Below, piece by piece: positions 52,114 through 60,638 of a stretch of 64,000 nt of DNA (the first letter of the stretch is position 1; each line of letters starts with the position of its first letter). Source of the stretch: Cladocopium goreaui. Taxonomy: Eukaryota > Sar > Dinophyceae > Suessiales > Symbiodiniaceae. The DNA lies in the NCBI GenBank assembly GCA_947184155.2, contig CAMXCT020000480.1, positions 166,162-230,161 on the forward strand. The letters are read 5' to 3'. The translations under genes were made by a program, and so were the position numbers. The notes beneath the pieces are model-generated. The model saw only the letters and a list, made by a program, of their open reading frames with translations. It made no database searches and was not told where the DNA came from.

Positions 52114-52117
52114 CACG

Positions 52118-52247
52118 TGTTCAATTTGTCATCCAAGGATTCTGATTGTGTTGACCTTCCACCGCAGCCGTGACACGGCTCTTGCTTACCTGATCCCTCA
52201 TGTGCGTCGGATGAAAGTGGCGCTTACCTGCATTGGGAGTTTCTTCA
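52118..52247 (+). repeat. 5' long terminal repeat, 130 bp
   Basis: Begins TGTTCAATTTGTCATCCAAG and ends CATTGGGAGTTTCTTCA. Very short for a copia LTR. It contains a perfect hairpin AGCCGTG-A-CACGGCT at 52166-52180. No TATA box was seen. Confidence 0.93.
52166..52180. promoter_or_regulatory. palindrome in the LTR
   Basis: AGCCGTG and CACGGCT around a single A; the same hairpin recurs in the 3' LTR at 60553-60567, where it overlaps the pol stop codon. It could be a protein-binding or RNA-structure element; role inferred only. Confidence 0.4.
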
Positions 52248-52248
52248 G

Positions 52249-52262
52249 TGGTATCCGGAGCC
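52249..52262 (+). promoter_or_regulatory. primer-binding site, initiator-Met-tRNA-like
   Basis: TGGTATCCGGAGCC starts one base after the LTR. The usual copia site is TGGTATCAGAGC, complementary to initiator methionine tRNA. Here seven bases match and the rest differ, which may reflect the dinoflagellate tRNA sequence or another primer. Confidence 0.6.
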
Positions 52263-52301
52263 CTGGCTTTGGGGCACGTCTAGGAGACCTTTGGAATTTC
52301 C

Positions 52302-53126
52302 ATGACTAGCTCGGAGGGCACCATCATCACTGGCGCTGCTGGTGAGGAGAGGACGGGTGGGCAAGAGCCAGTTCCTAGCTTGGCTGAATTTGTGGATGCG
52401 AACCCAGATAGGGGGAGTCATGGCAGATGGTCAGAAGAAGAATGGAGACAGTGGAATGAAGGCCGTTGGGGCTTGGGGGCTTCACACACTCAGGGCAACT
52501 TAGGAGCTGTCGAATCTCAGGGTGATTCTTCAGACCCGTGGTCCAGAGCGAACCAAGCCACTTGGACACCCGCTACCTGGCGTCCTACGTCATGGGGACA
52601 GTGGGACAAGCCTGGCTACAAGGGTGACTTCAGTGACCCTCCTTCTTGGGGAGGCTGGCCTCATTACCGCCTGTGGAAGAGAGCTATGACTCGTTGGGAC
52701 ATGAACACCGACGTCTTGATGTGGCGTCGCAGTGAAAAGGTCCTGAAGACTTTCGACTGGGATCTTCAGTCGAAGCTGGATCACCTCACGGATGAGGCAT
52801 TGCAATCCTCTGACTACTTGAAGCACATCTTCTCCATCCTCGACGTCTTGGCCGGCGAGAAGGAGGAATCTGAGAAGCGGCGAAGCATTCGAGCCGCGCT
52901 GTACGAAGGCCCTCGTCGCAGCGACGAGACTTTGTCGCAGTATACCTTGAGGCGAGAAGCTCAGTTCAGCTCCGCCTCTCGGTATATTCAGATCCCTGAT
53001 GATCTGAAGGCCTTCATGATGGAGGAGCAAGCGGGTCTTTCCAAGCAGAATCTCCAGAACCTCCGCTCGCTCACTGGCGGGGCTTCAAGCTTCTCGCAGG
53101 TGATGAAGGGTCTCCAAGGTCCTTGA
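52302..53126 (+). CDS. gag: Gag-like protein, N-terminal part
   Basis: 274 codons from the first ATG after the primer-binding site. Residues 25-110 are rich in Trp (WSEEEWRQWNEGRWG, PPSWGGWPHYRLWKRAMTRW), followed by a helical region (QSKLDHLTDEALQSSDYLKH, then ILDVLAGEKEE) and QYTLRREAQF, as in copia Gag/UBN2 proteins. It would form the virus-like particle. The frame ends at QVMKGLQGP and stops. The natural continuation (LDTEDEPIMKSKSHAYYGAE) is in the +1 frame, so one base seems to have been gained near 53115. Confidence 0.75.
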   Translation: MTSSEGTIITGAAGEERTGGQEPVPSLAEFVDANPDRGSHGRWSEEEWRQWNEGRWGLGASHTQGNLGAVESQGDSSDPWSRANQATWTPATWRPTSWGQWDKPGYKGDFSDPPSWGGWPHYRLWKRAMTRWDMNTDVLMWRRSEKVLKTFDWDLQSKLDHLTDEALQSSDYLKHIFSILDVLAGEKEESEKRRSIRAALYEGPRRSDETLSQYTLRREAQFSSASRYIQIPDDLKAFMMEEQAGLSKQNLQNLRSLTGGASSFSQVMKGLQGP

Positions 53127-53289
53127 CACCGAGGATGAGCCAATCATGAAGAGCAAGTCTCATGCCTACTACGGCGCCGAAGCCGCCGCCTCTGGAGACT
53201 ACGTCACTGAGGATCACGAGTTGACTGACGATGAGGACGCTTTGGACGAGCAGGAGTTTCCATGCCTTCCTCTATGTGGCATATCGTGA
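53113..53289 (+). pseudogene. Gag continuation in a second frame
   Basis: Between the Gag stop and the next ORF, a third frame is open and reads LDTEDEPIMKSKSHAYYGAE, then AAASGDYVTEDHELTDDEDA, an acidic linker. It changes frame again at about 53258-53268 (QEF, then HAFLYVAYRDD in the next frame). Each step looks like a single extra base. No known slip heptamer was recognised, so this reads as damage or assembly error rather than programmed shifting. Confidence 0.6.
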
Positions 53290-55429
53290 CGATCTGAATG
53301 AAGATCAAGCTCTCAATGGCTTGACCGAGATGCAGAACAGGAAAAAGAGATCCTGGGCTGAGAACAAGGCTTTGAAGAATGCGAGAAAGAAGGACAGACG
53401 TCATTTTGACGAACCTGCCTCTCGGCCGCCACGGCCACTTGGCCAGAAGGGCAGGCTGAGCATAGCTGAGTTGAAGAAGGTGACCAGGTGTGCGAATTGC
53501 GGTCAACGAGGCCATTGGAGAGAGGACTGCACTAGCCCTTACAAGCCCAAGTCGGATGCCAAGGATGGCAACAAAGGCATCAACGCCTTCGTTTTCATGG
53601 GTGCCGCCAGCAAGTCAGAGCACCTGGGCGGGTTTTCTGGCTTTGGATCATATTTCTGCTTTCTGAGCATCCCTCCCGGATATGCAGTAGTTGATCCAGG
53701 AGACAGCCAAGACCTGATCGGCAAGAAGGCATTTGATCGCCTGTCCGGCGAGCTCGCCAAGCTTGGGATGCAGCCGGTGAAGCTAGACGAGGCTCCACCG
53801 CCGGCTCTGGGCATTGGTGGAAAGGCAAAGGTTCTCTTCACGGCGCTCTCACCATGTTTCTTGGGCAAGTTCCCGGGCATAGTGAAACTGACAGTGATTG
53901 ATGAAGATGTTCCTCACTTGCTGTCAATTGGCCTCTTGGAGCATGCCAGAGCGGTCATCGACACCGATAAGAACATGGTGAAGTTCAAGACGTTTGATGC
54001 TGAAGCTAGCATGTCACGGCTTGAGTCGGGACATCGCCTGCTGAATGTTTTAGATGGAGCTCAGGTGTTTGAAGTGCCATCACAAGTTTTGGCAGAACAC
54101 AACCTGAGCCCAGATGCTTTTCTTTTGAAACAACCCTCTAGAGAGGCGAGAGCATACATGGCTGCATGTCCGAGTGTCGGGGACGCACATGTGCAATTTT
54201 GGGTTGATGAACGGTTCTTTATTGTTGTTAGCAGTGGCCCTCCGAGGCTTGAGGTTTTTCCATCCAGTGAGCAGTTTTGGGTTTCGGCTGCCGTTTCTTT
54301 TTCCAATGACGACTTTCGTGTTGTCCTTGCAGATGAGTCCAATCACGCATCATGTAGGAGTGCACTTCTTGATCAGATTGAGCAACAGTCGCAGCGAAGT
54401 TTGCACGCATCAGATTTCAGTGAGTCACATGAAGCATGTCAGTGTCAGGTGCTGTCTTTTTTCTCAGATGTCCAGAAACATTCAATCACCATGAGAGACT
54501 GTCAAAACATTTTTGATAAAGCCAAAGTCGTGTTTTCTCAAGAGAGTTCACGAGCCCGCTGCCCCAGCAGCTGTCACATGCTCAGATTTCTGGCCACGTG
54601 CGTGCTTACTTTTGACGTCCCTTGCCATGCAGGGTTTCCGTGCTCCCACTCGAGCCAAGAGCGCGAGGGCTCCTCGGAGCGAGGCTCATCGGGAGCATTT
54701 GGAGTCCAAGTGGTTTGGGATGACCAGCAGGCTGCTTCATTTGACGCGAGGGCCCTTCAACGTGAGGATGCCTCTTTTGTCAGAACCAGCACCTTGCCAT
54801 CATCCTCCGGAACAAGTGGTCACTGGGAAAAATCAATACGGGTCATGGGACAGCTGCCTGCTGTGCAAGACCAAGATTTGCTACCGCCCTTACGGGGAGG
54901 ACAATCCTCGCCCCTCTTCAACTCGGAAGTCATGTCAGACTCCTGCGGTGGATCGCGAGGCAGTGAAGGACATCAAGAAGGCCGCGACCTATGCATCACA
55001 GGCAGCAGCGGAGAAGAACTTTGTCACCCAGCAGGAGCTGCAAGAGACCTTGGCCGAGCAGAATCGGGCCATCACCGCGGGGATGCAACAGGCTTTGGGT
55101 CCCATTATCCAAGGCCAACAGCATCTCCAACAACAGATGTCGGGCCTGATGCAGAGCGCGGCAACCAGCAGCCAGATGCCACTTCTCCCACAGACCCAGG
55201 GCCAGTACGACGAGGAGATGGAGGGGAACCCAAACGAATGGGAGCTCTTCGGCTCGCGATGACCTTGTGTTCCCTGGCTTCGGTGGTGCAAGGTGGTGAT
55301 GCTACGTCAGCGTCCTGTTCATCTGAGAGGGGCAAAGAATTTTTAGGTCAATGGTTTGTTTATCCTTTTCACAAAGCTGTTGTTCATCCCTCGTTTCTTC
55401 ACTGCTTTTACTTGGCATCGAACCGATGA
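53231..55429 (+). CDS. Gag C-terminus with zinc knuckle and retropepsin-like protease
   Basis: The useful part runs from 53231 to about 54540; beyond that the meaningful frame moves to that of 54513-55262. A CCHC zinc knuckle, CANCGQRGHWREDC, lies at about 53489-53530 (residues 87-100) and would bind RNA. A retropepsin-like region follows: YAVVDPGDSQDLIGKKAF at about 53685, APPPALGIGGKAK, and DVPHLLSIGLLEHARAVIDT. The catalytic aspartate is present, but the usual D-T/S-G-A motif is D-P-G-D. Residues about 285-430 (FEVPSQVL to VFSQESS) are unassigned. The first codons MRTLWTSRS are probably not the true start because the frame was entered by a shift. Confidence 0.65.
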   Translation: MRTLWTSRSFHAFLYVAYRDDLNEDQALNGLTEMQNRKKRSWAENKALKNARKKDRRHFDEPASRPPRPLGQKGRLSIAELKKVTRCANCGQRGHWREDCTSPYKPKSDAKDGNKGINAFVFMGAASKSEHLGGFSGFGSYFCFLSIPPGYAVVDPGDSQDLIGKKAFDRLSGELAKLGMQPVKLDEAPPPALGIGGKAKVLFTALSPCFLGKFPGIVKLTVIDEDVPHLLSIGLLEHARAVIDTDKNMVKFKTFDAEASMSRLESGHRLLNVLDGAQVFEVPSQVLAEHNLSPDAFLLKQPSREARAYMAACPSVGDAHVQFWVDERFFIVVSSGPPRLEVFPSSEQFWVSAAVSFSNDDFRVVLADESNHASCRSALLDQIEQQSQRSLHASDFSESHEACQCQVLSFFSDVQKHSITMRDCQNIFDKAKVVFSQESSRARCPSSCHMLRFLATCVLTFDVPCHAGFPCSHSSQEREGSSERGSSGAFGVQVVWDDQQAASFDARALQREDASFVRTSTLPSSSGTSGHWEKSIRVMGQLPAVQDQDLLPPLRGGQSSPLFNSEVMSDSCGGSRGSEGHQEGRDLCITGSSGEELCHPAGAARDLGRAESGHHRGDATGFGSHYPRPTASPTTDVGPDAERGNQQPDATSPTDPGPVRRGDGGEPKRMGALRLAMTLCSLASVVQGGDATSASCSSERGKEFLGQWFVYPFHKAVVHPSFLHCFYLASNR
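54513..55262 (+). CDS. spacer protein with Cys motif and Gln-rich coiled coil
   Basis: 250 codons; the meaningful part starts near 54550 (HEPAAPAAVTCSDFWPRA). It has a Cys cluster (SCLLCKTKICYRPYG) that may bind zinc, then a long helix-forming segment (QQELQETLAEQNRAI, then QGQQHLQQQMSGL) and an acidic end (QYDEEMEGNPNEWELF). The stop overlaps an ATG in the next frame (ATGA). Likely part of the original Gag-Pol precursor between protease and the methyltransferase-like domain. Function unknown. Confidence 0.55.
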   Translation: MIKPKSCFLKRVHEPAAPAAVTCSDFWPRACLLLTSLAMQGFRAPTRAKSARAPRSEAHREHLESKWFGMTSRLLHLTRGPFNVRMPLLSEPAPCHHPPEQVVTGKNQYGSWDSCLLCKTKICYRPYGEDNPRPSSTRKSCQTPAVDREAVKDIKKAATYASQAAAEKNFVTQQELQETLAEQNRAITAGMQQALGPIIQGQQHLQQQMSGLMQSAATSSQMPLLPQTQGQYDEEMEGNPNEWELFGSR

Positions 55430-58400
55430 GGAGTTCGATGATGTTTTTTGTGTTTGGTGGTCTCCATCTCTGTTTGAATCCTTGGCATCCGCCGACGATC
55501 TTGACGATCGTGAGTTTCAGATCCCAAGACATGTAAAGAAGGGTCTGACTCAAGAAGTGCATGATATCATAGAATCATCCGACCACAATGCGAATTCAGA
55601 CATTTTGTCTTTGGCCTTGGTTCAGCTCAAAAGGGCTTTACCTCATCAGTCTCACCTTTGTGCGGAGGAGACCCTAGGACTCCAAGAGTGGAAGAATAAT
55701 GCGGCGGAGACGCAAAAACTCCAAGAAGGTAGCAATAAGACGGGGGAGACGTCAGGACTCCAAGAAAAAAGCAATAGCGCGGTGGAGACGCAAGGACTCC
55801 AAGAGGCCAAGAGCCCAAGTAGGAACCAAGAGGCCAAGAGCCCAAGTAGGAATGCTGAATTACAATCTCAAATAGCTGAACTTCTAGGTCAACATCTCGG
55901 AGGTAGGGTAGTGTCAGTAAGTCATGGCCCCGGTTCCGGCCACCCCCCGGTAGCAGACAGTAGATGCGCAGCTCCCATGGTCAACGGCCATGTATCGTCA
56001 AGCAGCTACCTCTGCAGTGAGTCCAAACCCTACAAGGTTTGTGAGCTGTTTTCACCACAGAGGGCATCTACGCTGCCTTGCGCCGGAGTCTCATTTACTT
56101 CACCTCCAAGTTTTGACCTTCAGACTGGTTGGGATTTTTTTGATGCGGGAGATAGGGCTGCCTTTTGGAGATGCCTGCGAGAACAAGAACCGGATCTCGT
56201 TTTGATGTCACCAGAGTGCAGGCCCTTCAGCATTCTCATGAATTCCAACTGGAACAAGATGGATCCACAGGAAGTTCTGCGTATCAGGACTCGGGGCATG
56301 GCCATGTTCCAGTTTTGCATTCAGGTCGCAGCTTACCAGCTCCAGCGTGGTAGGCATTTCTGGATTGAGCAACCAGCACTGGCGTCAAGCTTAGCGACAC
56401 ACGCCTCCCAGTGGCTGATGTCCCAATTTGGAGTCTTCTTGGTGCAGTTTGATCAGTGTGCAGCTGGCCTTTCAGTGCTTTCAGGGCTTTTGTCAAAGAA
56501 GCCCACATGCTGTATTACCAATCACTTGGGCATCATCAGAGAATTGTCAAAATTGGTGTGTTCTGGAGACCATCCTCACGTTCCATTGCAGGGCGGGTTA
56601 CCGGCCAAAGCCCAGGAGTACCCGGTTGGGCTTGTCAGCGCTCTCCTCGATGGAATTCGTTGGTGGCTGAGGCGCAGTAACTCTTGGTCCCTTTTCAATG
56701 GAGTAGAGGAAGATGCGTTTGAGAACGAGCAGGCTTTGGGAGGAGATGGAGAGGATCTGGAAGAAGAAGCAGATCTTTCTCGCCGTCAGCTTTCAGCTCC
56801 TCAAACTCCCTCTCCAGTCAAGGCTAGGGCAATGTCCATCTCGCCTCGACAACGAGATCTAGTGAACAAGTTGCATGTGAGCATGGGCCATCTCCCCAGA
56901 GATCAAATGTTGGCCATGTTGAAAGCTGCGGGGGCGAGAGATGAAGTTAGACAATACGTCAAAGAAGAGTACAAGTGCCTTCAATGCTCCAAACAGCATG
57001 GTCCAGTTCCTCACAAGCATGCCCCCTTCCCAAGGACGTTCTCTTTCAACAAGTTGATTGGTATTGACTACTTCTATATCTCCTTCATGGGAAAGACACA
57101 CGCGTTCTTGAACGCAGTCTGCCAGGGGACCAACCTTCAACAAGTCGCCTTGCTGCCAAACTACTCCGGAGGTCCTCCCAATGCCAGAGACACATGGGCT
57201 TTGTTTAACCGGCTTTGGGTTTCTCCTTTCGGTCTTCCAGAAGTAGTCCTTTGCGACCAAGGCTCTGAGTTCAAGGGCGACTTCGAGAGATCCCTAGAGC
57301 AGGCTGGCGTCATGCAGTCAGTCACTGACAGTGCTGCGCCCTGGCAGAATGGCAGGGTTGAGCGACATGGTGCATGGCTGAAGCAGAGGCTGGAAGAAGA
57401 AGTACAAAGTGGACAGGCTGTTCTACAGAGCAGCGCGGACCTGGAGATGTTAGCAATCATGGTGACATCCCACAAGAACAGGTGGTTTCATCGTGGCGAA
57501 TATTCGCCTTACCAGCTGGTTTTCGGAGTGAATCCTCGAGTTCCCTTGGAGCTCCTGTCAGATGACCAACTGGTGATTCCAGGCATTGCTGATGCCGACG
57601 CTGATTCCTTCGAGGCAGACACTCCTGCGGCAGAATTTGCAAGGGCTCATGCAATCCGACAAAGAGCCAGGCAACTGTGCATGAACTCCAACTTGAAGGA
57701 CAAGGTTCGTCTCAGTTTGTCGCATCAAAGTCATCAACGCCGCCAATGGGCTCAGGGCCAGTGGGTCTACGTCTGGCGCAAGCTGCCAGGCACAGGCGGC
57801 GGGCATATGACTCGCTCAAGGTGGGTGGGGCCTGGAGTTGTGATCATGCAATCTGGCCATTCAGTTTGGGTGGCTATGAGGTCCAGAATTTGGAAGTGCA
57901 GCTCAGATCAGCTCAGAGCAGCAAATCATCTGGAAGCTCTCGGCGCTGAGCTCACGAGCTTACCCTCCTTAGCAGACATTCTTCAGCAGACGAAAGCGAA
58001 GCAAGCTGGAGCAGTGGATGTTGAAAGCGAAGGAGCTCCAAGCGCCGAGGCGTGGGAAAAGCCACTTGTCCCAGCACATGAATCCGTGCCATCAAACCCA
58101 CCTTTGACAAATCAGCCACTCGAGTCAATTCCAGAGGAACCGAGTGGCCAAGACCAGGAAGCCGAACAAGGCCAAAGAACAGCCATCAGAGACTTCCTTC
58201 CACCAGCTCTTGAAGCACCACCAACACCTTTGCCACCGCCTCCTAGGCAACGGCAGGTGTCGGTCATTACGGCCGATGAGCCACAGGTTGAACCCATCCC
58301 ATCGGATGCCTCTTCTCGAGAATCTAAGAGGAGGAGACCAGTGGCTGCGGCTGGAGAAGTTAGAAAGAGAGTCAGTGAGCTTGAGTCACAACAACTGGAG

Positions 58401-60560
58401 CGCGAAGCCCTCAGAGAGCTTCGTCGGCTGGACAGAGAAGAAAGGCAACAAAGAAGAATGAGCACATCTTCAACGGCTTCAACACCTCGGCCGTTAGAAG
58501 AATTAGCACGCAGCTCTTCTGAACATCAGCCCCCCGAGGTGCCACCAGACACTTCTGAGCAAGATGGGCATGAAACCCTAGGGGATGATCTTTGCTCCTT
58601 CTTCTCCTTGAAACTCTCTGAGGACGGCGGCAATTTTCTTGCCGGTCCGCCAAAGGCCAAGAGCGCAGAGTTTGACATGAAAAAGGCTTCAAAAGAAGAG
58701 CGTCTCGGCTTTGAAGCTTCCGACAAGGACGAATGGGAAACGATATTGAGGCTGAAGGCCGTCAAGGTCTTATCAGTTGTTGAGTCCGAAAAAGTGAAGA
58801 AGACAAATCCCGAGAGAGTTATCTCAAGCCGCATGATACGGCGCAAGAAACCAACACCTGGAGTAGGATCTTTTAAGTTCAAATCCAGATGGTGTCTTCA
58901 TGGACATCAGGATCCAGACTCTGGAACTTTTGAAGTCTACTCGCCGATGCCCTCCACAGAAGCCATCAACATGTTCTTCCAACTGTGCCTCAACATGGGT
59001 TTGAAAGTCAGTTTTTTGGACATCAAGAATGCATTCTGCCAGGCTGATAAGCTGAAGCGTCCTCAAGGAAAGATTTATGCTGTACCCTGCGAAGGCCTAG
59101 GCCTATCAAGTGACCAGCTCATAGAGATAGTAGCCCCAATATATGGCCTTGACGATTCTCCACTTCGCTGGCATCGCACTTTGCTTACTTTCTTTGAGGG
59201 CCTAGGCTTTGAGAGATCTCTTATCGAACCATGCTGGCTGATCAAAAGAGTTTCTGGTAAAGTGATTTCTCAGGTCTTAGTTGAGGTAGATGACCTCAAC
59301 ATAGCCTGCACAGAGGAGTTTCTTCCTGTCTTACAGAAAGCTCTTCGTGAAAGGTTTGAGTTTGGAAAATGGGAGCAAGACACTGCTGACTTTGCTGGCC
59401 GTCATGTGTCAGTCAGAGACAACAAAGTGATCATGCACCAGGAAAAATATATCCTGGAGAAACTGTTTCCAGTACACCTCAAGAAAGGGCGTTTGTCTGA
59501 CAGGTCCAGTCCTTTGGACAGCGAGGAGTTCGAAAGCTTCAGGTCAATGCTTTACAAAGTGAATTGGGTCGGCCACCAGACTCGGCCGGAAGCTTGCGGC
59601 GTCATTAGCATTTTGGCCAGTCGGTTGAAGAACGCAACAGTTCACGACGTGGCATGCCTCAACAAGCTGATCAGCCATTTGCGAAGCACTGCTAGCCAGC
59701 CTCTCGTGCTTCACAAATTTGACAACAACAAGATGACCTTGATAGCTGCTTCAGATGCTGGGGGCGTCGACAGCCTTCCTCCAGGACATCAACAGAATGT
59801 CTCACTGGACAACGTACAAGGAGCATGGTTGATACTGGCTGCTGAGCGAGTTCCTTCAGCCTCCTCCAAGACAAAAGTGTCCATCCTATCATGGCGTTCC
59901 TCGAAGTTGAAACGTCGGGTTTCTTCCTCATTGGCAAGTGAAGCTTTGGCATTTTCTCAAGCACTTGGTGAATTGGAGTGGTTGCAAATTATGTTCAGGG
60001 ATGTCGTTTTCGGTGATGTAAACAAACATGACTGGTCCTCTTCCATCCTCCCTTTTGTTGGAATACTTCGCGAAGACGGAGAGTTATACAAGAGGTTGCA
60101 CCCAGAGACTGAGAGACTGGAACAATGCAGCATTACAGATGCCAAGAGCCTTTTCGACTCCTTGAAGAAGGAAAACCCCTCCTCTCGTCAAGACCGTAGG
60201 ACAGCCATTGAGATAGCCATCATCATTGAATCAATGCAGAAGTCCAAATCCATCCTCCGTTGGTCACCTCATCCAAGAATGGTAGCCGATGTTTTGACAA
60301 AGGATGATGTGGCCAAATCTAACGGCGCTTTGGAAGAGATGTTTCGCACGGGCTCTTTGTCAATTTGGGATGAAGCTGATGAGTTAGCGCGTAGGAAGAG
60401 TGATCCAAAGACGAAGGCGAGGTCTAAGAAAGCTGCTGGTGAATTCCGCCAGACCGGCTTCTGCCTTCTTGTGGAAGGTCAACCCAACTCTAAGTTGGGG
60501 GTGCTGTTCAATTTGTCATCCAAGGATTCTGATTGTGTTGACCTTCCACCGCAGCCGTGA
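55356..60560 (+). CDS. pol: copia Pol polyprotein with methyltransferase-like domain, integrase, RT and RNase H
   Basis: 1734 codons, uninterrupted. Residues 105-170 hold Gln/Lys repeats (GLQE, KSPSRN). Residues about 220-445 resemble a C5-cytosine methyltransferase: KVCELFSPQRAS, then LVLMSPECRPFSILM (Cys of motif IV kept, in Pro-Glu-Cys), then HFWIEQPALASS (place of motif VI, Glu kept). Residues 510-560 form the HHCC zinc finger (LHVSMGH to CLQC). The integrase core has Asp at GIDYF (about 569), Asp at LCDQGSEF (about 633) and Glu at GRVERHG (about 668). Reverse transcriptase has FLDIKNAF (about 1219) and VEVDDLNI (about 1308). RNase H has AASDAGG (about 1466), a conserved Glu in ASEALAFSQALGELEWL, and ITDAKSL. 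ADVLTK is near the end. The last 18 codons lie inside the 3' LTR. The first codons may be fortuitous, since the upstream frame differs. Confidence 0.9.
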   Translation: MFILFTKLLFIPRFFTAFTWHRTDEEFDDVFCVWWSPSLFESLASADDLDDREFQIPRHVKKGLTQEVHDIIESSDHNANSDILSLALVQLKRALPHQSHLCAEETLGLQEWKNNAAETQKLQEGSNKTGETSGLQEKSNSAVETQGLQEAKSPSRNQEAKSPSRNAELQSQIAELLGQHLGGRVVSVSHGPGSGHPPVADSRCAAPMVNGHVSSSSYLCSESKPYKVCELFSPQRASTLPCAGVSFTSPPSFDLQTGWDFFDAGDRAAFWRCLREQEPDLVLMSPECRPFSILMNSNWNKMDPQEVLRIRTRGMAMFQFCIQVAAYQLQRGRHFWIEQPALASSLATHASQWLMSQFGVFLVQFDQCAAGLSVLSGLLSKKPTCCITNHLGIIRELSKLVCSGDHPHVPLQGGLPAKAQEYPVGLVSALLDGIRWWLRRSNSWSLFNGVEEDAFENEQALGGDGEDLEEEADLSRRQLSAPQTPSPVKARAMSISPRQRDLVNKLHVSMGHLPRDQMLAMLKAAGARDEVRQYVKEEYKCLQCSKQHGPVPHKHAPFPRTFSFNKLIGIDYFYISFMGKTHAFLNAVCQGTNLQQVALLPNYSGGPPNARDTWALFNRLWVSPFGLPEVVLCDQGSEFKGDFERSLEQAGVMQSVTDSAAPWQNGRVERHGAWLKQRLEEEVQSGQAVLQSSADLEMLAIMVTSHKNRWFHRGEYSPYQLVFGVNPRVPLELLSDDQLVIPGIADADADSFEADTPAAEFARAHAIRQRARQLCMNSNLKDKVRLSLSHQSHQRRQWAQGQWVYVWRKLPGTGGGHMTRSRWVGPGVVIMQSGHSVWVAMRSRIWKCSSDQLRAANHLEALGAELTSLPSLADILQQTKAKQAGAVDVESEGAPSAEAWEKPLVPAHESVPSNPPLTNQPLESIPEEPSGQDQEAEQGQRTAIRDFLPPALEAPPTPLPPPPRQRQVSVITADEPQVEPIPSDASSRESKRRRPVAAAGEVRKRVSELESQQLEREALRELRRLDREERQQRRMSTSSTASTPRPLEELARSSSEHQPPEVPPDTSEQDGHETLGDDLCSFFSLKLSEDGGNFLAGPPKAKSAEFDMKKASKEERLGFEASDKDEWETILRLKAVKVLSVVESEKVKKTNPERVISSRMIRRKKPTPGVGSFKFKSRWCLHGHQDPDSGTFEVYSPMPSTEAINMFFQLCLNMGLKVSFLDIKNAFCQADKLKRPQGKIYAVPCEGLGLSSDQLIEIVAPIYGLDDSPLRWHRTLLTFFEGLGFERSLIEPCWLIKRVSGKVISQVLVEVDDLNIACTEEFLPVLQKALRERFEFGKWEQDTADFAGRHVSVRDNKVIMHQEKYILEKLFPVHLKKGRLSDRSSPLDSEEFESFRSMLYKVNWVGHQTRPEACGVISILASRLKNATVHDVACLNKLISHLRSTASQPLVLHKFDNNKMTLIAASDAGGVDSLPPGHQQNVSLDNVQGAWLILAAERVPSASSKTKVSILSWRSSKLKRRVSSSLASEALAFSQALGELEWLQIMFRDVVFGDVNKHDWSSSILPFVGILREDGELYKRLHPETERLEQCSITDAKSLFDSLKKENPSSRQDRRTAIEIAIIIESMQKSKSILRWSPHPRMVADVLTKDDVAKSNGALEEMFRTGSLSIWDEADELARRKSDPKTKARSKKAAGEFRQTGFCLLVEGQPNSKLGVLFNLSSKDSDCVDLPPQP
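55668..55858 (+). repeat. internal repeats in the Pol spacer
   Basis: Four imperfect units of about 45-50 bp around GACGCAAGGACTCCAAGAG, and a 27-bp exact duplication around AGAGCCCAAGTAGGAA (peptide AKSPSRN). In-frame, so tolerated by the protein. Confidence 0.8.
60488..60504 (+). promoter_or_regulatory. possible polypurine tract
   Basis: CTCTAAGTTGGGGGTGC lies directly before the 3' LTR. Only the GGGGG core is purine-only, so it is a weak polypurine tract; placement is right. Confidence 0.35.
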
Positions 60561-60634
60561 CACGGCTCTTGCTTACCTGATCCCTCATGTGCGTCGGATG
60601 AAAGTGGCGCTTACCTGCATTGGGAGTTTCTTCA
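60505..60634 (+). repeat. 3' long terminal repeat, 130 bp
   Basis: Same sequence as 52118-52247. The pol stop codon TGA is at 60558-60560 inside it, so the Pol C-terminus NLSSKDSDCVDLPPQP is LTR-encoded. Confidence 0.93.
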
Positions 60635-60638
60635 CACG

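Follow-up and report, generated by a model that had tools for sequence, protein, structure and literature searches.

The 64,000-nucleotide window analysed here (Cladocopium goreaui, contig CAMXCT020000480.1, positions 166,162 to 230,161 of the forward strand) holds a Copia retrotransposon whose Pol protein contains, just upstream of its integrase, a methyltransferase-like domain of 224 residues that was apparently captured (56010..56681, + strand, as are all features below). Judged from sequence comparisons, this domain is homologous to the phage methyltransferase family phrog_757, lies upstream of the integrase, keeps a near-invariant Cys and Glu, shows purifying selection where pairs of copies are informative and has diverged together with its neighbour in Pol. 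On the same basis it is a distinct branch related to phrog_757, not filed as a member of that family, and a standard part of Pol in a large group of Copia elements. Our preferred reading, to which we give an even chance, is that the element has taken up a C5-methyltransferase of phage type that modifies the complementary DNA (cDNA) of the element itself. An initial annotation of this DNA had described a methyltransferase-like stretch before the integrase of a copia Pol, and the host protein was correctly named, as seen from a copia-type reverse transcriptase match (RVT_2), from long terminal repeats (LTRs) and from the same arrangement at 30/30 loci. The open reading frame (ORF) concerned (55356..60560; 1,734 codons starting with TTG, the frame being open from 55347) does exist, and KVCELFSPQRAS, LVLMSPECRPFSIL and HFWIEQP occur in it in that order. 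The span first proposed, 56018..56700, starts out of frame (9 stops when 56018-56700 is read from its first base); the limits used here (about 56010-56681, with domain residue 1 at 56010) were drawn from an alignment of relatives.

The kinship with phage enzymes came from profile comparisons of these relatives. In a first alignment (A1), 58 of the 70 first-search copies were retained, the omitted ones (L012-L015, L025, L026, L030, L034, L038, L058, L069 and L072) having stops, truncations or redundancy. The PHROGs tally of this set was led by the DNA-methyltransferase families phrog_757 (23/58) and phrog_2882 (20/58) at E 10 or below, with a best E of 7e-5 for phrog_757. In a second alignment (A5), made of 20 of 23 later copies after the near copies L223, L233 and L236 were omitted, 6/20 matched phrog_757 at E 0.1 or below; the best was L215, matched over residues 38-222 at E 3.1e-11, and the same place was found at E 1.5e-8 when the whole genome (the host assembly, 1.17 Gb) was searched with phrog_757. 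Phage members were gathered with KPTDIWTN, which we take to be a word of the phrog_757 family: at least 120 such stretches led to 111 ORFs, 69 after thinning and 54 in the phage alignment A2, where the word is invariant because it was used for the gathering. Both A2 proteins that were scanned (2/2) are phrog_757 (E 4.9e-33 and 7.4e-29) and both also pass the cut-off of PF00145, the Pfam family of C5-methyltransferases, a result that links these proteins with the C5 superfamily.

In profile-profile comparison, the 58 Copia copies and the 54 phage proteins aligned end to end, with a score of 114.6 and Prob 98.8 across 198 columns. As controls, 100 column shuffles of A2 reached at most 22.9 (mean 14.2, standard deviation 2.5), the reversed profile scored 9.8, and the integrase profile scored 15.3 against the phage profile. 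The second Copia set aligned with the phages over 196 columns (Prob 97.9). When six PF00145 enzymes encoded in the host genome were used as the partner, the phage family aligned over 85 columns (Prob 90.5) and the Copia domain in its motif IV-VI part alone (52 columns, Prob 55). Altogether, these alignments draw a line from the Copia domain to short phage methyltransferases and from there to the C5-methyltransferase superfamily, and some copies, such as L215 (LEVFAG, APPCTAWC, VVENP) and L212 (EVYVGAGR), form a bridge toward the phage form.

Like the Copia domain, phrog_757 (with phrog_2882, phrog_363 and phrog_116) is short, follows the same motif order and has no target recognition domain (TRD). 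The order common to phrog_757 and Copia runs E-L-F, SPPC.FS, F.E.P.G, C.YG...KPT..TN, C..G..H and P..LC.EI, and both share an invariant Cys, an invariant Glu and a C/C/H set. The two differ in that the phage genes gathered are standalone ORFs, whereas the Copia domain lies inside Pol, and identity between the window domain and 40 phage proteins is 18-26%. They also differ in motifs I and VI, which are of the FAG type and ENP in the phages (54/54) but of the FSPPR type and EHP or EQP in most Copia copies, so that the phage features are found only partly in Copia (N after the Glu in 6/93 copies, F/Y-x-G in 19/93).

In the window copy, the motif I position reads ELFSPQR, without F-x-G (56043..56063), motif IV reads SPECRPFS (56208..56231, Cys codon 56217-56219) and motif VI reads EQP (56367..56375). 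A block of the form DQC..G...KKPT..ITN (56451..56522) aligns to the phage YCQYG..RMKPTDIWTN in the region of motif VIII. It is followed by C-x3-H-x-H (56559..56579), which together with the Cys at 56457-56459 may form a zinc site common to the phage family, and by YPVGLVSAL (56619..56645), aligned to the P..LC.EI end of the phage proteins and possibly motif X-like. By domain numbering, the conservation of C150, C184, H188 and H190 suggests this zinc site; its phage counterpart consists of C136, C161 and H168 (54/54 each), with a Cys at 167 in 31/54. Pro-Glu-Cys and Glu-Gln-Pro, which the initial annotation took for altered motifs, with a degenerate binding module among its readings, turn out to be usual for this branch (E[H/Q/N]P in Copia), and homology to the phage family marks them as features of another branch of the C5 superfamily rather than of decay. 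The altered place of the window domain is motif I (FSPQR), rather than motifs IV and VI.

Conservation was read over 93 aligned copies, made up of the window copy, 69 first-search copies (L010-L078) and 23 later ones (L212-L216 and L219-L236); all of them entered the residue counts, although seven have no motif I part. The motif IV Cys is kept in 92/93 copies, the exception, L026, carrying a stop codon, and the motif VI Glu is kept in 93/93, followed by H (49), Q (38) or N (6) and then by Pro in 92 of the 93. Loss of the Cys and Glu in most relatives, which had been named as an observation that would undo the methyltransferase assignment, is thus refuted. Other residues are kept to a similar extent (K164 and C184 in 92 of the 93; C150, H188 and H190 in 91). 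Motif I is a proline-bearing loop (F/Y-x-P-x-R or F/Y-x-x-P-R) in 63 copies, F/Y-x-G in 19 and of other form in four.

Selection was measured as the ratio of nonsynonymous to synonymous divergence (dN/dS, Nei-Gojobori) among 90 stop-free copies, of which 61 pairs fell within the length and saturation limits. Nine pairs, some sharing members, had dS 0.1-1.5, and eight of them gave dN/dS of 0.04-0.14; seven pairs at dS <= 0.1 were too close to judge, and the remaining 45, with dS >1.5, were excluded from this reading. Codon comparison thus shows purifying selection on the domain wherever a pair was informative, and a degenerate passenger was set aside on dN/dS and the residue counts. The distances between copies of the domain also followed those of the integrase: over 35 loci the Mantel r was 0.943 (0/2000 permutations as high), with mean distances of 0.61 for the domain and 0.59 for the integrase. 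Such a correlation, with such similar means, indicates that the domain has been passed down as part of Pol and has changed about as fast as the integrase.

The spread of the domain across the genome was followed with the stretch 55998-56747, which gave 3162 first-look candidates; the best 150 of these were scored; none had an E above 3.4e-21, and most lay in open frames longer than 1,000 aa. A copia integrase lay directly downstream of the domain, usually in the same frame, in 30/30 loci (the window and 29 relatives, with 1.5-kb flanks). A search with the L212 form gave 3550 candidates, of which the best 150 were all at E 2.0e-50 or better; the two candidate counts may overlap, 150 being scored in each, and such genome-search counts should be read as lower bounds or as a loose first look. 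For several matches of the L212 search, the contig also holds an RVT_2 match whose frame is equally long, as in contig C1289 (domain at 64820, reverse transcriptase at 67955, frame of 2,498 aa) and contig C713 (domain at 175135, reverse transcriptase at 172099, frame of 2,450 aa). From a list of 150, six Copia elements were also chosen for their reverse transcriptase and long frame; of these six, L212-L214 carry the domain, a proportion that is not a rate, and the three domain-less ones (L209-L211) belong to the best-scoring RVT_2 lineage.

How could such a domain serve the element? The ancestor of a large dinoflagellate Copia group would have gained, in what was probably a single capture event, a minimal TRD-less enzyme of the C5-methyltransferase type and of phage kind, which would thereafter have been handed down together with the integrase as a regular component of Pol. 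The domain is predicted to be catalytic and to follow the C5-methyltransferase mechanism, in which the Cys attacks C6 of a pyrimidine with help from the Glu. Before integration, the probable target would be the cDNA of the element itself, or an RNA-DNA hybrid, because the domain is made within Pol alongside reverse transcriptase and integrase; lacking a recognition domain, the enzyme would owe its choice of target to packaging and to its tethering to the Pol complex. A new copy would in this way bear a mark that is presumably already widespread in host DNA, and would pass as self. That the mark is widespread has been reported for Symbiodinium.

Several observations weigh against a cDNA methyltransferase of this kind. 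The window copy itself gives no Pfam domain match at E 10 or below, so the PF00145 profile check proposed in the initial annotation came out negative, and this copy reaches phrog_757 only at E 0.025. The domain has no QxRxR of motif VIII (KPT stands in that region) and no TRD, and ends at about 220 residues. The F-x-G glycine is missing in 63/93 copies, which makes use of S-adenosylmethionine (SAM) doubtful in the clade of the window copy. Among the nine pairs with measurable divergence, the ninth (L032-L216) has a dN/dS of 0.69 but is a pair near saturation, and L010-L013 and L036-L063, both very closely related pairs, show a dN similar to dS on too few changes for a judgement. Finally, observed/expected CpG was 0.57-0.63 in the domain-bearing L212-L214 (median 0.59 in L009-L038) and 0.30-0.46 in the three domain-less L209-L211, which are thus more depleted, in a comparison of small n confounded by codon usage. 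CpG depletion was accordingly rejected as a sign of self-methylation, the trend being opposite to a simple CpG footprint.

Membership of PF00145 was itself rejected. A motif IV Cys after Pro-x and a motif VI Glu are present, but Asn-Val does not follow the Glu and the F-x-G-x-G SAM loop of motif I is absent (FSPQR in the window). PF00145 matched 9/58 of the A1 relatives at E 10 or below, with a best E of 0.015 and none reaching the family cut-off, and it was absent from the families matched at E 1 by the 20 copies of the second set. The C5-methyltransferase layout claimed at first therefore stands as homology to a branch of the superfamily, but not as membership of PF00145.

The same observations bear on what else the domain could be. 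It may be non-catalytic for methyl transfer and act as a Pol module that binds nucleic acid or helps in assembly, with its fold under selection. The motif I glycine missing from most copies and the missing QxRxR would fit such a module, but a pure scaffold leaves the near-invariant Cys and Glu unexplained, and we regard it as rather unlikely. A cytosine methyltransferase could also work on RNA, given that DNMT2 methylates tRNA. Here the enzyme would act in the particle on the element's genomic RNA or on its tRNA primer, and its place in a polyprotein expected to be packaged together with RNA, as well as its lack of a TRD, are in keeping with this. The DNA methyltransferase (DNMT) encoded by a long interspersed element (LINE) gave no DNA methylation in yeast, a result that its authors call inconclusive, and an RNA target is discussed in the passages concerned (PMC5890265). 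The nearest family found, however, consists of phage proteins annotated as DNA methyltransferases, an annotation that we take as given, and we hold an RNA substrate to be unlikely.

Dinoflagellate DNA is known for unusual bases. The Cys/Glu chemistry could serve another change at C5, with another cofactor or on another base, such as a derivative of thymine or uracil. The motif I rebuilt in the clade of the window copy speaks for this, and 5-hydroxymethyluracil appears enriched on repeats in Breviolum minutum, at least in the part of that report concerned (PMC11071213). Positive evidence for another cofactor or product is lacking, and the F-x-G copies look, by eye, like ordinary SAM-binding architecture, which makes this explanation quite unlikely. 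A bolder version, limited to the window clade, holds that Cys/Glu C5 chemistry was kept while the cofactor loop was rebuilt (FSPPR type), yielding a modification other than SAM-derived 5-methylcytosine on cDNA; we consider it improbable, and if true the rebuilt-loop enzyme would represent a novel kind of base-modifying enzyme, present in many copies in a major dinoflagellate retrotransposon group. Lastly, chance resemblance of an unrelated Pol spacer holding C5-like words, which the poor Pfam and phrog_757 scores of the window copy might invite, is very improbable in view of the shuffle, reversal and integrase controls, the end-to-end collinearity with phage proteins and the L215 match.

Other searches added little to the C5-methyltransferase assignment. 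A search of PDB sequences with the single stretch found none, and the eight chains obtained with A1, which were response regulators and one oxidoreductase with a best E of 0.13, were of no use. Hits were likewise weak and scattered when A1 was compared with NCBIfam (best E 0.016) and A5 with PADLOC (best E 0.012). With tblastn against 50,697 phage records, two records (both phage Kopi) and one record at E 9 were obtained, which is chance level, and a match of L065 to a Kopi gene annotated 'putative C-5 cytosine methyltransferase' was not counted. No relative was found in viral contigs with short exact peptide words from the window domain or L215. Stray Pfam matches among the 58 members, in one or two members each, were to Dynein_heavy (7.8e-4), DUF6909 (0.0052) and tRNA-synt_2 (0.0085); they were taken as chance because they do not recur, though they score better than PF00145. 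Similar stretches are presumably also present in predicted proteins of other dinoflagellates.

The element that carries the domain spans 52118-60634 and has the hallmarks of Ty1/copia: RVT_2, an integrase upstream of the reverse transcriptase, TG...CA LTRs and a short target duplication. A reading of the stretch as a cellular gene was rejected in view of the LTRs and the integrase. The 5' LTR (52118..52247) and the 3' LTR (60505..60634, which holds the Pol stop codon) are 100% identical over 130 bp, which points to a recent insertion, and are flanked by 4-bp target-site duplications, CACG (52114..52117 and 60635..60638). Next to the 5' LTR lies TGGTATC, resembling a primer-binding site that we take to be of the initiator tRNA-Met type. 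A Gag-like open frame of 280 codons from stop to stop (52284..53126) was assigned by position alone; it is followed by an open frame (53225..55429) with a zinc knuckle (about 53489-53536; zf-CCHC E 3.3e-4). In this second frame VVDPGDS may be, by eye, an aspartic protease site, and no protease family match was obtained for the frame. A further open frame lies upstream of Pol in the Pol frame (54495..55262, with a stop before 55347). Within Pol, the integrase region (56841..57695; H-H-C-C zinc part and core) has a weak rve match at ORF residues 610-660 (E 0.051, under its cut-off), and the same region recurs downstream of the domain at the loci described above. The copia-type reverse transcriptase follows at 58794..59453 (RVT_2 E 2.1e-11, Pol residues 1147-1366). 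The coding region of the window copy is split over frames despite identical LTRs, and many relatives are open over more than 2,500 aa; the copy is either a recently moved defective one or makes use of frameshifting. As for the host assembly, a 21-mer that we take to be the dinoflagellate spliced leader has 172 exact copies in it (81 + 91), and its reversed control 0, a count that by itself would make the host most probably a dinoflagellate.

Other methyltransferase-like genes are present in the same genome. Many standalone phrog_757-type ORFs of about 200-230 aa were seen (L200-L207 and other short-frame places), many of them identically scored; the eight that were read have a MKLLELFSGTGSVG-like start, WASPPC, ENPQ or ENPE, YCKYG or FCKYG, and R[K/R]TR[I/L]W. 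These ORFs have the look of a methyltransferase family of their own, either mobile or of viral origin. Another phrog_757-like domain lies in L217 (contig C1102) and L218 (contig C5587), in frames of about 1,035 and 1,062 aa, with FAGSCNLS or ICAGTAMLS, APPCG and ENP; in L217 it is followed, by eye, by a reverse-transcriptase-like stretch of non-copia look. This domain is possibly a further capture. At least 125 PF00145 matches, many identically scored, were also found in the genome, which fits the LINE and DIRS methyltransferase elements of Symbiodinium.

Those elements set the frame for what is new here. The initial annotation was right that retrotransposons of dinoflagellates capture DNMTs, but the known cases are in LINE and DIRS elements, not in Copia (PMC5890265, in the passages on these elements). 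SymbioLINE-Dnmt and SymbioDIRS-Dnmt3 resemble the Copia domain in belonging to dinoflagellate retrotransposons with many intronless copies, in their conserved catalytic residues and in purifying selection; they carry PF00145 domains in LINE ORF1 or DIRS Pol, according to the same passages (PMC5890265). The Copia domain is unlike them in its shorter branch, its place in an LTR Copia Pol with copia-type reverse transcriptase and its invisibility to PF00145. In yeast, CG methylation was obtained with two SymbioDIRS-Dnmt3 domains on their own, and in the sections concerned it is suggested that cDNA is methylated (PMC5890265). In the part of that study that treats Copia, this most abundant superfamily of Symbiodinium 'lacks any DNMT domain', a statement made from a PF00145 search (de Mendoza et al. 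2018, PMC5890265). The KnitGypsy-Dnmt3 of the charophyte Klebsormidium nitens also places a methyltransferase in an LTR-retrotransposon Pol but, as described there, it is Gypsy, of DNMT3 type and of another host lineage (PMC5890265). Orchid Ty3/Gypsy elements with an m6A (N6-methyladenosine) RNA demethylase domain are likewise LTR elements with a captured nucleic-acid-modifying enzyme, and they differ in that the enzyme is a demethylase, the element Gypsy and the host a plant, on the portion of the report that describes them (PMC9289625). A passage of a 2025 paper names DNMT3 in LTR Copia in passing, the DNMT3 having been found with PF00145; this may be a slip, since the corresponding passages of the paper it cites report Gypsy (charophyte), DIRS and LINE. 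In the open-licence literature, no report of a methyltransferase-like domain in Copia was found. What is new is thus the branch of enzyme and the class of element, while retrotransposons with captured methyltransferases were known already.

If a large Copia group has a methyltransferase invisible to Pfam, then retrotransposon-borne genes of the methyltransferase type would be far above the counts made so far. If our reading of the domain as a phage-type enzyme is true, there would be a second, phage-type source of captured methyltransferases. The idea that retrotransposons shape the methylomes of these genomes would then become directly testable, and the domain-bearing and domain-less Copia elements that coexist in one genome (3 and 3 of 6) would provide a natural experiment.

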